Under the pieces are notes generated by a model. That model ran no database searches, was not told the DNA's origin, and worked only from the letters and a program-made list of their open reading frames with translations. DNA of 49,445 nucleotides from positions 7,453 through 56,897 of the forward strand of contig JADGDI010000003.1 of the NCBI GenBank assembly GCA_016744975.1, in the 5' to 3' direction. The DNA is from Hyphomicrobiales bacterium (GTDB lineage Bacteria; Pseudomonadota; Alphaproteobacteria; Rhizobiales; OSC116). The translations under genes and the position numbers were made by a program. The stretch's first letter is position 1. Each line of letters starts with the position of its first letter. Below, piece after piece: positions 14,036 through 19,363 of the stretch.

Positions 14036-15343
14036 ATGACTATTATTGATATGCCAATTAACAATCGTGCGGCCAGCAAACAGCCATTTGTGGCTATTTT
14101 AGACATTGGAACTAGCAAAATCACCTGCATGATTGCAAAAGTTGGCCATTCAAAAAATTGGCCAGGCATGCGTGGAGCGCGCCATCAGATACATGTTCTA
14201 GGCGTGGGTTATAAACGCTCTCATGGCATTAAAGCTGGTAATGTGATGGATATGGAGCTGGCCGAACAATCGATCAGAAGTGCAGTGGATTCAGCTGAAA
14301 AAGAAGCCAATGTGCGCGTTAGTGAAGTGATTGTTAACGTCTCTGGCGGCCGCGCTCGCAGCGACATTTATGATATTGAAGTCAAAATTGCTGGCCAACA
14401 GGTCAGCAATCAAGACATGATGTATGTAGTTGCCGAAGGTGAGCGTCAATCAGAGCAAATTGATAAAGCGATATTACATACGGTACCTGTTGCATTTTCA
14501 ATTGATGGCAACCGCGGTATTAGTGATCCGCGCGGCATGTTTGGCGAGCAATTGGGTGTGGATATGCATGTGGTGAGCGCGGATGTTGGCCCACTTAAAA
14601 ATCTAAAATTATGCATCGAGAGATGTCATTTAAAAATTCAAGATTTTGTGGTAGCCGCCTATGCCTCTGGTCTTGCATGTTTGGTTGAAGATGAGATGGA
14701 TCTTGGTGTTACTTGCATTGAAATGGGTGCAGGCTCAACTTCTATTGCAGTGTTTTTCGAAGGAAAATTCATTTATACTGATATGATTGCGATCGGCGGT
14801 CATAATGTAACGATTGATCTGGCGCGCGGGTTAAATACTCAAATTGCTCATGCTGAACGTACTAAGATTTTACATGGCAGTGCAATTGCTGGTATTGCTG
14901 ATGAAAGTCAATTGATTAGCATTCCAATGCTTGGTGAAGAAGATTGGGAATTGCAAGAAATAGAAAAATCGATTTTAACTGGTATCATTGCACCGCGTAT
15001 TGAAGAGACGTTCGAGATTATTCGTGACCGATTACAAACCAGCGGTTATGGCGATGTTGCAGGGCATCGTGTGGTGCTTACAGGCGGTGCTAGTCAGCTT
15101 ACAGGCGTGCGAGAAATTGCTGCAAGAATATTAGGGCGCCAAGTGCGGGTCGGCAAACCTTTGATGATTGCAGGGTTAAATGGTGATTATAGCGACCCGT
15201 CATTTGCGACTGCAACAGGTTTATTAGCCTATGCAGGCTCTCGCCCATTAAGCCTGCGTGATGCAGGGGATGAGCCAGAAAAAATCGCTGCAAATAGTGG
15301 CTATTTTACGCGGATTGGTCATTGGCTTAAAAATAATTTTTAA
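14036..15343 (+). CDS. ftsA: Cell division protein FtsA
   Basis: Actin-like ATPase that tethers FtsZ filaments to the membrane. The 435-residue protein opens the ATPase fold with LDIGTSKITCMIAKVG and has the second phosphate loop EMGAGSTSIAVF. The last residues (YFTRIGHWLKNNF) form an amphipathic helix, the expected membrane-targeting sequence. A GAGAG ribosome binding site precedes the start. Unlike the usual order, ftsZ does not follow directly: a gene on the other strand and a separate promoter region lie between. Confidence 0.96.
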   Translation: MTIIDMPINNRAASKQPFVAILDIGTSKITCMIAKVGHSKNWPGMRGARHQIHVLGVGYKRSHGIKAGNVMDMELAEQSIRSAVDSAEKEANVRVSEVIVNVSGGRARSDIYDIEVKIAGQQVSNQDMMYVVAEGERQSEQIDKAILHTVPVAFSIDGNRGISDPRGMFGEQLGVDMHVVSADVGPLKNLKLCIERCHLKIQDFVVAAYASGLACLVEDEMDLGVTCIEMGAGSTSIAVFFEGKFIYTDMIAIGGHNVTIDLARGLNTQIAHAERTKILHGSAIAGIADESQLISIPMLGEEDWELQEIEKSILTGIIAPRIEETFEIIRDRLQTSGYGDVAGHRVVLTGGASQLTGVREIAARILGRQVRVGKPLMIAGLNGDYSDPSFATATGLLAYAGSRPLSLRDAGDEPEKIAANSGYFTRIGHWLKNNF

Positions 15344-15373
15344 CCTAAATGCATATTACCTAAATGCATATTA
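15344..15373. repeat. Perfect 15-base tandem duplication after ftsA
   Basis: The sequence CCTAAATGCATATTA occurs twice, head to tail, at 15344-15358 and 15359-15373, directly after the ftsA stop codon and 13 bases before the end of the convergent gene. The unit contains ATGCAT, a palindrome. I see no terminator hairpin with a T tract here. Confidence 0.9.
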
Positions 15374-15386
15374 ATGAGTGTTTTAT

Positions 15387-16268
15387 TTATTCTAAAATTT
15401 GTCTAACAATATCTAATTTTGGCTGCATCTTTAAATTGTCCAAATGGCGCTTTAAATTATAAATTTGTTTGCCATTTTTAAACACCGAATAGTCGAGCTT
15501 TAATAAATGCTGCATTAGATAAGTTGAAAAGGTTTCGGCAAAATCTTCGGCCAAATTGCACGCTGCATAAAAAGATACATATTCTGAAGTTTCCAATTGT
15601 TTCAGCAAATTGGAGTTAGCACCATAAGGCAAAGCTCGCTTACATCGGTTGCCATTTAGGGCTTTATCAAATTTAATGACTGAATTCTGTTTGGAATGTT
15701 TTGCTAGATTTTCAAAAACAGGTCTGGAGAAATTTTGGTTGCGTATCACATGGGCCAATTCATGAAATAAGGTGTTTGCAAGCGCGTAATTGATCGGTAA
15801 ATCGCCATGGCTAATGCGCTTTAGTGAGAATCCTAGTGCCTCCCAATCTGAAAATTGAGTAGGTGTGCTACCTAGGCTATAGGCAACTTCTTTGTTCCAC
15901 CTATAGCCTTTATACGGTCTATAAAAGCGATTAATACTGGCCCATGAAAAATAAATTTTATTGTCAATTGCATAGGCGGAATTTGGTAATTTAATCAACT
16001 GCTTTGCAACATAAATATAGTCAATATTGCAAATGGTTTGTTGGACCAATGGTGGCGATATTGCATAGATTTTAGTCAACTGGCCTTCAAAATCAAATGC
16101 CTTTAACCAGTTTGGTGGGCTAGCACATATATTATCATTTTCCGTGTCAATATAACAAACTTTACTTGCAATAGGAACTTGGCAATTAAATGCAAATGCC
16201 TGCATTGGAATAAAGAGGTAGCAGATCGTTAAAGTGATTTTTAGAAAAGCTTTAATATTTAGGTTCAT
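15387..16268 (-). CDS. Secreted putative zinc metallopeptidase (HELAH), unknown family
   Basis: I do not recognise the family. The 293-residue protein starts with a clear signal peptide (hydrophobic stretch 8-26, likely cut after AFA at 26), so it should be periplasmic or secreted. HELAH at residues 169-173 fits the HExxH zinc-binding and catalytic motif, and EDFAE at 241-245 could supply the third, glutamate ligand of a gluzincin. Six cysteines after the signal peptide (about 29, 38, 48, 80, 209, 237) allow disulfides. It is convergent with ftsA and divergent from ftsZ, breaking the normally adjacent pair. Peptidase activity is inferred from the motif alone; a wall-related role would only be a guess from position. 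Confidence 0.7.
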   Translation of the reverse strand: MNLNIKAFLKITLTICYLFIPMQAFAFNCQVPIASKVCYIDTENDNICASPPNWLKAFDFEGQLTKIYAISPPLVQQTICNIDYIYVAKQLIKLPNSAYAIDNKIYFSWASINRFYRPYKGYRWNKEVAYSLGSTPTQFSDWEALGFSLKRISHGDLPINYALANTLFHELAHVIRNQNFSRPVFENLAKHSKQNSVIKFDKALNGNRCKRALPYGANSNLLKQLETSEYVSFYAACNLAEDFAETFSTYLMQHLLKLDYSVFKNGKQIYNLKRHLDNLKMQPKLDIVRQILE

Positions 16269-16491
16269 GTAAAAGTAGGTTGGATTGGATGATTTATGAT
16301 CGCTCTAACCTATCTAAATGTAAGAATTTTGCAAGAGAAATGGATGGGATGCAAATAACGTTTTCGTTAAAATTTGTATAAAATTCATCGTTAATAAAGG
16401 GTCAAATATTAACTTGATTAATAGTTTAATAACCATATTGGCCTATAGGATATAGATGCACAAGTGAAACAACTAAGAGTAGAGGTTGGCG
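16269..16491 (+). promoter_or_regulatory. Divergent intergenic region driving ftsZ
   Basis: This 223-base AT-rich gap must hold the ftsZ promoter, because the gene upstream runs the other way. Four TTAA half-sites lie at 16391, 16409, 16418 and 16426, reminiscent of CtrA sites, but none has the TTAA-N7-TTAA spacing. An AGAGG ribosome binding site at 16481-16485 lies six bases before the ATG at 16492. I cannot place a -35/-10 pair with confidence. Confidence 0.5.
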
Positions 16492-18333
16492 ATGACAATA
16501 AATATTCAAATGCCCGAATTAAGAGAATTAAAACCGCGTATCACCGTTTTTGGTGTTGGTGGTGCTGGCGGTAATGCCGTTAATAATATGGCAGAGCAAG
16601 GCCTAGAAGGCGTTGAATTTGTAGTCGCAAATACCGATGCTCAGGCGTTGGCCAAATCTAAGGTCGAGCGCCAAATACAACTTGGCACAATGATTACAGA
16701 AGGCCTTGGTGCTGGCTCGCGCCCAGAAATTGGCGCGGCAGCAGCCGAAGATAGTTTGCCAGACATTGCAGATTGCATGCATGGCTCACATATGTGTTTC
16801 ATTACAGCTGGTATGGGCGGGGGCACTGGTACTGGTGCAGCACCCGTAATAGCCCGCGCAGCGCGTGAGTTGGATATCTTGACAGTCGGCGTGGTTACAA
16901 AACCGTTCCAATTTGAGGGCGCACGGCGTATGGATATTGCCGAACGCGGCATTGCCGAGCTCGAGCAGCATGTTGATACTCTGATTGTTATTCCAAATCA
17001 AAATTTATTCCGTATTGCTAATGAACATACAACTTTCTCGGATGCATTTGCCATGGCTGATCAAGTATTGATGAGCGGCGTGTCAGGTATTACTGACTTA
17101 ATGGTTAAAGAAGGCCTTATTAATCTGGATTTCGCTGACGTTCGTGCGATTATGAAAGATATGGGTAAAGCTATGATGGGCACTGGTGAATCATCTGGTG
17201 AAAAGCGGGCAGTTGAAGCTGCTGAAGCTGCGATTTCAAACCCATTGCTTGACGACGTGTCTATGAAAGGCGCTAGGGGCCTGTTGATTAGTATCACAGG
17301 CGGTAGCGATTTAACGCTATATGAAGTGGATGAAGCGGCATCGCGTATTCGCAGTGAAGTAGATCCAGAAGCCAATATTATTCTTGGCGCAACATTTGAT
17401 GATGGTTTAGATGGCGCAATGCGTGTGTCTGTGGTTGCAACGGGTATTGATCAAGGTGAAATGGCAATATTGGGTAATAATGCAAACAATCAGAGCATAA
17501 ATGCATTTGGCCGTTCGGTGCCAGAAAAAATAGAAGCAACACCTGTAGCACCTGTTGCGCGGGTTGAAGCTGAGCAGCCAAAGGCCATCATTAAACCGCA
17601 AAGTGAAAATATAGAGATTAGGCGTTTAAGTGGGGATGATGCCGTTCAAAAAGCTGGCATGCGTTCTGGGCAAATTGAGGCGCAAAATGTGCAAGTAGCC
17701 CCGCGCCGTAGTGAGTTTGAACCCCAGCGTCCAGTGAGTGTGAACCAAAGTGTGGCAAGTCCTACGATGGTAAATCCTGCAATGTCTAACCCTTCAATGT
17801 CTAATCCATCACTGTCTAGCCCATCAATGGCAACCAACCCAATGCGTGCCACCTCTAATGCGCCTAGGCAACCTGCGCCACAAGCTCAACCAGTTAGCGC
17901 TCATGCTCAAAGTCAAGTTGCATCAACATTAGGTCATCAATCACCGCGTGCAAATTTAGCACATCAAAGTCCCGCACATGCTTTGCGCACGGAAGACTTT
18001 CCACCGGTTGCGCAACGTGAAATACGTCAATCGCAGCATGATGCACAACAGCCAGCGCAAGCTGCGCCCAATGCTACATCTGATGCAAATCGTCAAGCAA
18101 CAGCAAAAAGAAACGGCTTTTTTGACCGTTTAGCAAATGTTGGCCTTGGTCGGCGTGATAATGGTTTGGTTGAAGGCAGTCAAGCGTCACAAGAAGCAGT
18201 TGCACCTCAAGCCCAAGCGCAGCCACAAGTTCGCCCGCAAGAAGCGGCGCCAATTTATGAAGAAGATAGAAGGGCAGAGAATGGTGAGCAAAACCTTGAA
18301 ATTCCTGCATTTTTACGACGTCAAAATAACTAG
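16492..18333 (+). CDS. ftsZ: Cell division protein FtsZ
   Basis: Tubulin-like GTPase that forms the Z ring. ATG 16492 is preferred over an in-frame TTG two codons upstream: it has AGAGG at the right distance and gives the MTIN start seen in rhizobial FtsZ. The product has 613 residues. The GTP signature GGGTGTG lies at about 109-115 and the T7 loop (NLDFADV) at 210-216, so both polymerisation and hydrolysis elements are intact. A very long, disordered linker rich in Ala, Pro, Gln, Asn and Ser (about 320-595) follows, with a five-residue repeat inside it. The last residues, [11 protein letters not shown], are the conserved tail that binds FtsA and other partners. A strong terminator follows the stop. 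Confidence 0.97.
17761..17835 (+). repeat. Five-residue (15-base) repeat in the FtsZ linker
   Basis: Five consecutive units of about P-S-M-S-N ([25 protein letters not shown]) are coded at 17761-17835. The DNA units are diverged from one another, so this is an older expansion than the exact duplications at the murB-ddl and ftsA junctions, though the period is again 15 bases. Confidence 0.85.
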
Positions 18334-18357
18334 TTGAGGCAACACCTCTCCTTGTGC

Positions 18358-18391
18358 AAAGGGTATCAAGCTTGACTTGGTACCCTTTTTT
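18358..18391 (+). terminator. Rho-independent terminator after ftsZ
   Basis: AAAGGGTATCAAG (18358-18370) pairs with CTTGGTACCCTTT (18376-18388) through one G-U pair, with loop CTTGA, giving a 13-base-pair stem followed by a T tract to 18391. It should isolate ftsZ from the downstream sirtuin-like gene. Confidence 0.92.
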
Positions 18392-18456
18392 GCGTTTGTT
18401 AATGAGCGGTATATGTGGTTGAATATTTAAATATTTTAAACCAAAAGCGGGCTATC

Positions 18457-19206
18457 ATGGGTCAAAATGAAAATAAATTATACATTACTGGTGCCGGGGT
18501 TAGTGTTCAAAGTGGTATTCCGACCTTTAGAGGCAGCGATGGCTTTTGGATGATAGGTAGTAAAAATTTTACACCGCAGGACATGGCAAGTCGGGCAATG
18601 TATCAAAACAATCCTAAACAGTTTTTGCTATGGTATTATAAACGCTTTGCAACTTATCGCGACCATGGACCAAATGACGTACATTACTGGTTGGCAGATA
18701 AAAACTTAATCACCCAGAATATAGATGGATTAGACGGAAAAGCGGGCAATCAAAATTACATATCCATTCATGGTAGGTTGGATAAAGTAACCTTATTCCA
18801 TCGTCAAGGTGAGGCCGTTGATATTTTGGATGCGCCTTGGGCTAAAATCAATAAATCAGAATTAGATGACCAAGCACTTGCTGAGCAATTGTTGAAACTA
18901 TTTTATATCGAAAAAGAGTGCCCTAAACTTGAAAAATCTCTAAAACCATATGTGCTGCTGTTTGATGAATATTATACCGAGATCTATGATATTTCAAAAG
19001 CTCAAGAACGCATGTATTTGGCAGATAGAATTATTTTTATCGGTACCAGCTTTAGTGTGAATATTACCCAAATGGCGCTAGAAATAGCAGCATCAAATCG
19101 TATAGAAATAGAAATTGTAGACCCAAAGCCAGTGCGCATTGCGTATGACAAGGTGGTTTATCACAAAATGACCGCACTGGAATATATAAATTCAGGTAAT
19201 TCTTGA
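18457..19206 (+). CDS. Sirtuin-like (Sir2 family) protein without zinc-binding cysteines
   Basis: The 249-residue product has the NAD-binding core of Sir2 proteins: TGAGVSVQSGIPTFRG at 11-26, TQNIDGLDG at 87-94 with the N and D that contact NAD, catalytic His at 105 (IHG), and GTSFSVN at 196-202. The family normally deacylates lysines using NAD. The small zinc domain is degenerate: only one cysteine (155) is present in the whole protein, in a CPKL stretch where CPxC is expected. The start at 18457 begins just before the fold; an in-frame GTG at 18415 would add 14 residues. It fills the slot between ftsZ and bamD normally held by lpxC. Substrate and activity are unknown. Confidence 0.8.
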   Translation: MGQNENKLYITGAGVSVQSGIPTFRGSDGFWMIGSKNFTPQDMASRAMYQNNPKQFLLWYYKRFATYRDHGPNDVHYWLADKNLITQNIDGLDGKAGNQNYISIHGRLDKVTLFHRQGEAVDILDAPWAKINKSELDDQALAEQLLKLFYIEKECPKLEKSLKPYVLLFDEYYTEIYDISKAQERMYLADRIIFIGTSFSVNITQMALEIAASNRIEIEIVDPKPVRIAYDKVVYHKMTALEYINSGNS

Positions 19207-19214
19207 CCATAAAT

Positions 19215-19252
19215 TGCCTTATTTATAAGATATAAGGCAGCTATATCTTATA
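19215..19252. repeat. Two overlapping, mutually exclusive inverted repeats
   Basis: TGCCTTAT (19215-19222) pairs with ATAAGGCA (19232-19239). An 11-base stem TATAAGATATA (19224-19234) pairs with TATATCTTATA (19242-19252). The two stems share 19232-19234, and each right or left arm falls in the loop of the other, so only one can form at a time. No T tract follows. It lies between the sirtuin-like gene and bamD, and could be a weak terminator or a folded leader. Confidence 0.55.
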
Positions 19253-19363
19253 TGCAATTGAGCATGCAATTATCCGACTTATGGCTTGCTCATTTTTTAA
19301 TTTGCGAATATATGTTATAGAGTTAATTTTTAGCGGCTTTAAGCCGTTCGTTAAGGGGAAGTT

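Follow-up and report, generated by a model that had tools for sequence, protein, structure and literature searches.

The interval between ftsA and ftsZ

The window, by which we mean the whole 49,445-nucleotide stretch of DNA analysed (genome G000), carried ftsA (14036–15343, plus strand; TIGR01174, 340.3 bits against a cut-off of 175.85) and ftsZ (16492–18333, plus strand; TIGR00065, 403 bits against a cut-off of 295.2), both passing NCBI equivalog cut-offs. The start of ftsZ was taken as the ATG at 16492 that opens the conserved MTINIQ; the ORF caller gave a TTG at 16486. The whole interval between the two genes (15344–16491) measured 1148 bases, 882 of which were taken up by an intact minus-strand ORF with an ATG start (15387–16268), encoding a protein of 293 residues named here after its HELAH motif and annotated as a PF15890-type putative zinc metallopeptidase. 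Its gene was convergent with ftsA, 43 nt away, and divergent (head to head) from ftsZ, with a 223-nt intergenic region between the two starts (16269–16491). The first-pass annotation had placed here a minus-strand gene with a signal peptide, HELAH at residues 169–173 and a downstream EDFAE; ORFs and profile scores confirmed this reading, and its coordinates, motif positions and 223-base gap before ftsZ were all correct.

The HELAH gene of the window is the single known copy. Its GC content (35.3%) was considered as a sign of transfer and rejected as such, since GC3 (0.333) fell inside the range of the neighbouring genes and was host-like, leaving no compositional sign of recent transfer. A repeat search found a perfect 15-nt tandem duplication (ACCTAAATGCATATT x2; 15343–15372) running from the ftsA stop codon, a possible scar of some event.

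Motifs, family and predicted structure of the HELAH protein

The N-terminus (MNLNIKAFLKITLTICYLFIPMQAFA, followed by FNC) had a hydrophobic core, where 15-residue hydropathy peaked at 1.78 (it did not exceed 0.86 elsewhere in the protein), and a cleavage-like site between AFA and F. With low pLDDT over codons 1–26 (16191–16268, minus strand), and no lipobox before C16 or C29 on inspection of the protein sequence, we read it as a signal sequence lacking any usable lipobox. HELAH (codons 169–173; 15750–15764, minus strand) would provide a pair of metal-binding histidines as well as the catalytic glutamate, and EDFAE (codons 241–245; 15534–15548, minus strand) holds candidate third ligand E241 and candidate second-shell residue E245. 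Twelve residues were invariant in a five-member set: C29, C38, C80, H169, E170, H173, Y234, E241, D242, F243, A244 and E245. Among 5000 shuffled versions of the protein, 20 contained HExxH but none had ExxAE after an HExxH; as the combined motif was conserved in relatives, it is not a chance string. In anthrax lethal factor a catalysis-assisting tyrosine lies seven residues ahead of the ligand glutamate. Because Y234 stands at the same distance ahead of E241, we favour E241 over E245 as the predicted third zinc ligand, by analogy with zincins of the lethal-factor type. The zinc ligands of lethal factor are His686, His690 and Glu735, the last of these on a helix of its own (PMC5668564).

The family, which had not been recognised in the first-pass annotation, proved to be PF15890 (Peptidase_Mx1), matched at 29.9 bits against a gathering cut-off of 25.6 over residues 159–290 and, at E <= 0.1, by 5/7 subfamily members. 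PF15887 (Peptidase_Mx) was not reached (19.2 against a cut-off of 27), nor was TIGR04549 (22.9 bits against 75), a model for which the protein also lacks the expected lipoprotein signal. HHalign paired the protein with two Bacteroidota lipoproteins at a probability of 96.7, aligning HExxH on HExxH and EDFAE on EDFAE; the one member of this pair that was scanned (L084) matched PF15890 at 255.9 bits. The sequences of 9URD and 4L7A likewise carry HExxH and EDxxE. Sequence search of the PDB gave only a weak match to 9URD, with a profile (E 0.56), and phmmer matches obtained from the single sequence were discarded as chance-like.

AlphaFold2 models built from 7 and 11 sequences reached pLDDT 74.2 and 75.9 and pTM 0.79 and 0.80. 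The predicted histidines sat on a helix spanning residues 161–179 and the predicted glutamates on another spanning 239–256, and the region between the motifs was of low confidence (pLDDT about 40–50 near 190–210). With both models the top Foldseek match was 4L7A, a Bacteroides caccae protein and close sequence relative of the Bacteroidota pair matched by HHalign, followed by lethal-factor-type and other zincins with weak scores. The structure-based search that had been proposed for this protein thus returned a zincin family match (4L7A, probability 0.99–1.00) but a poor whole-fold superposition (TM 0.35–0.43, rmsd 8–8.6 Å), so that only the local arrangement is to be trusted. The literature searched held no report of peptidase activity for any PF15890 member. 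The HELAH protein is probably a secreted, zinc-dependent peptidase of a known, little-studied family.

Relatives and the ftsA-ftsZ junction across the genus and order

Relatives were sought in Hyphomicrobiales by a two-step search and by scanning named genomes. The former found them in a few genomes (G037, G559 and G477, which is Maritalea porphyrae NBRC 107169), and the latter showed that M. porphyrae, M. myrionectae and an uncultured Maritalea carry members of the same group. Together these outline a sparse secreted subfamily with 15–28% identity to the window protein and its best matches in Maritalea. Naming neighbours from their translations, we found one Maritalea copy next to rpoH and to a PdxH-like gene of flavin-oxidoreductase type, and others elsewhere, beside SDR and alcohol dehydrogenase-like genes; the M. 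myrionectae and uncultured Maritalea copies had yet other neighbours. Nothing was found among these neighbours that ties the subfamily to division. By the same naming, a Maritalea HELAH pair followed a run of hemD/HemX/HemY-like genes (L079:347-5945), and a distant HETAH lipoprotein in G960 stood ahead of a hemC-like gene (L088:181-2171), a shared hem-gene neighbourhood that is possibly chance. M. porphyrae also carried a tandem paralogue (L073:1387-2373, L079:4008-4961) in which HELAT/KQFAQ or HEMAL/KQFAQ replaces HELAH/EDFAE; it stands next to an intact copy and is probably a pseudoenzyme.

Within the genus of the window the sole other HELAH relative was a decayed copy in G002, at a different place, beside a distant MepB-like gene and with neither a signal sequence nor the EDFAE stretch. 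The window protein scored 120 bits with the rpoH-side Maritalea copy and 50 bits, over a shorter stretch, with the decayed G002 copy; the two copies in the genus therefore seem not to be orthologues by simple vertical descent. Scans of genome-contig, plasmid and phage collections with the single sequence, and of viral contigs with a profile, found no relatives, and these collections thus give no sign that the gene came from a phage or a plasmid.

Across the order, ftsA and ftsZ lay on the same contig and in the same direction in 56 of 61 genomes, with a median gap of 118 nt; the gap was at most 539 nt in 49 of these and longer than 1 kb in 7. All five congeners had ftsA and all but G003 (71% complete) had ftsZ, and comparison of the spacing, as the first-pass annotation had suggested, found the HELAH gene between the two in 0/5. 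G002 had an empty junction of 208 nt. The junction measured 1062 nt in G005 and 1344 nt in G004, each time containing an antisense MepB-like gene (PF08877), joined in G004 by a second antisense ORF of membrane type. G003 had a MepB-like gene after ftsA, where its contig ended, and in G001 ftsZ and its MepB-like gene lay on a different contig from ftsA. Antisense MepB-like genes thus occurred at the junction in 4/6 genus genomes (L054:6273-6791, L037:1448-1975, L064, L065), while G000 lacks MepB-like genes altogether. An FtsA tree bearing on the ancestral state of the site was poorly supported at its base, and a literature search for interrupted ftsA-ftsZ pairs in Rhizobiales gave no pertinent result. 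The genes read inside long ftsA-ftsZ gaps, in the genus and in G042, G010, G059 and G009 (L046, L055, L045 and L044), were all antisense to both ftsA and ftsZ regardless of gene family, which, over about five independent events, is only suggestive of a rule for inserted genes.

In G005 and G001 a dispersed, palindromic, MITE-like repeat of about 390 nt stood directly after ftsA (L038:2700-3085; G001:C47:74076-74484). It had more than 100 matches each in G001, G003 and G005, 66 in G002, 2 in G004 and 1 in G000, contained the inverted repeats AAGTTTGCATT and AATGCAAACTT, folded far better than shuffles (z -5.6) and matched no Rfam family. Since G001 carried copies both after ftsA and upstream of mepB-ftsZ, the arrangement suggests that recombination between repeats parted ftsA from ftsZ in that genome.

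The last 124 nt or so before ftsZ (16368–16491, plus strand) formed a conserved leader, the presumed ftsZ control region, which could be aligned in G000, G001, G002, G004 and G005 whatever stood upstream. Its conservation indicates that ftsZ keeps its control region despite the insertion. No sigma-70 consensus was found in the 223-nt divergent gap including the leader, where sites were fewer than in shuffles, and no CtrA-type TTAA-N7-TTAA box was found upstream of ftsZ, the count in the window being equal to chance. Of the earlier proposal that ftsZ must have its own promoter, separate control is therefore supported by the leader; a consensus promoter was not found, and the arrangement is ordinary in Alphaproteobacteria. 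Separate ftsZ control is unremarkable here, as work on Caulobacter has established that ftsZ there is under cell-cycle control of its own (PMC2217572, PMC8973945).

Downstream of ftsZ, lpxC was missing between ftsZ and bamD, and a Sir2-like gene stood in its place (18334–19363); in relatives from the order, read from translations, lpxC lies between the two. Searches for PF03331 (LpxC), PF02684 (LpxB) and PF04453 (LptD) found none in six genus genomes, four of them at least 90% complete, with positive controls in E. coli and Caulobacter, and LpxK was represented only by 40-residue matches below the cut-off in 4/6. The genus may no longer make lipid A, though it retains BamD, and a literature search on lipid A loss in the order gave no pertinent result. 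This genus-wide absence of lipid A genes may outweigh the HELAH finding itself.

Interpretation and comparison with known systems

We consider it quite probable that the gene lying antisense between ftsA and an intact ftsZ control region is lineage-specific and encodes an exported metallopeptidase of zincin type, belonging to the PF15890 (Peptidase_Mx1) family. Its position most likely reflects one among several insertions at a tolerant, turnover-prone junction; such a junction tolerates antisense genes because ftsA ends before the insert and the ftsZ leader is left whole. Of the two origins offered in the first-pass annotation for a periplasmic metallopeptidase at this site, a local arrival is supported by the PF15890 match, by HExxH...EDFAE being invariant in active-looking relatives and by absence from the congeners. 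A wall-related factor found no support, the gene being absent in congeners and its relatives lying beside unrelated genes. These relatives were scattered (rpoH, hem-type and SDR neighbours), which by that annotation's own reasoning makes the position coincidental, and the position looks like a coincidence of gene turnover and not the mark of a new division factor.

As to function, we infer that the signal sequence would direct the protein to the periplasm, where the conserved cysteines could form disulphides. Zinc would be held by H169, H173 and E241, E170 would activate water with help from Y234 and E245, and some peptide or protein, periplasmic or outside, might be hydrolysed. With ftsZ transcribed from its own leader, the insertion would be tolerated and would need no specific division role.

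The protein could instead be a catalytically dead zincin that binds a ligand or holds a substrate, like the HELAT/KQFAQ paralogue of Maritalea, and degeneration does occur within the subfamily, for whose wider PF15890-type family we know of no demonstrated activity. The window copy, however, keeps every expected metal-binding and catalytic residue, and we regard this alternative as unlikely. It is very improbable that the HELAH and MepB-like genes belong to a single mobile or linked module, inherited piecemeal at the site. The HELAH gene does occupy the place of the MepB-like genes of four congeners, and the decayed G002 relative adjoins a MepB-like gene, but that pair is convergent, in a different orientation, its MepB is only 40% identical, and no MepB stood next to HELAH in those regions of Maritalea and G037 that were read. 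Slightly less credible still is that the HELAH protein is a periplasmic peptidase linked to the wall or to division, its gene regulated jointly with ftsZ through the 223-nt divergent region that they share: position, export signal and head-to-head orientation would fit, but five congeners with ftsA, and all but G003 with ftsZ, have no HELAH gene at the site, the relatives adjoin unrelated genes, and MepB-like and other unrelated genes occupy the same site in other genomes. Least credible of all is that an exported zinc peptidase head to head with ftsZ, under shared ftsZ control, was recruited to envelope remodelling in division in a genus apparently without lipid A.

Under the preferred reading, an insertion at a tolerant junction, a candidate division factor is struck from the list and its family is named. 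The ftsA-ftsZ junction also varies in Hyphomicrobiales: among genomes of a single genus it was empty or was occupied by the HELAH peptidase, by one MepB-like gene, by two genes or by a dispersed repeat, and in one genome ftsA and ftsZ stood on different contigs. Gene-neighbourhood arguments on division clusters should allow for such variability.

Among known systems, the solved PF15890 relatives (4L7A and 9URD) are alike in being exported and in having HExxH followed by a tyrosine-containing stretch and an EDxAE-type motif. They are of Bacteroidota type, 9URD being named a lipoprotein, whereas no lipobox is present in the HELAH protein, which is about 10% identical to 4L7A over the Foldseek alignment. 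Its C-terminal motif region is also matched by TIGR04549 (substrate import-associated zinc metallohydrolase lipoprotein); unlike that family, the HELAH protein has no lipobox and its gene has no adjoining importer genes. PF15887 proteins of Rhizobiales and Sphingomonas share SxYAxxxxxEDFAETxxxYL, near-identical across 25 residues, but carry zinc-ribbon-like cysteines at the N-terminus and lack a signal sequence. MtfA (M90) and, in anthrax lethal factor, the catalytic domain (M34) hold zinc through a histidine pair from one helix and a glutamate from a helix further along. The HELAH protein resembles them in catalytic-site layout only, with weak fold matches and no family-level sequence match.
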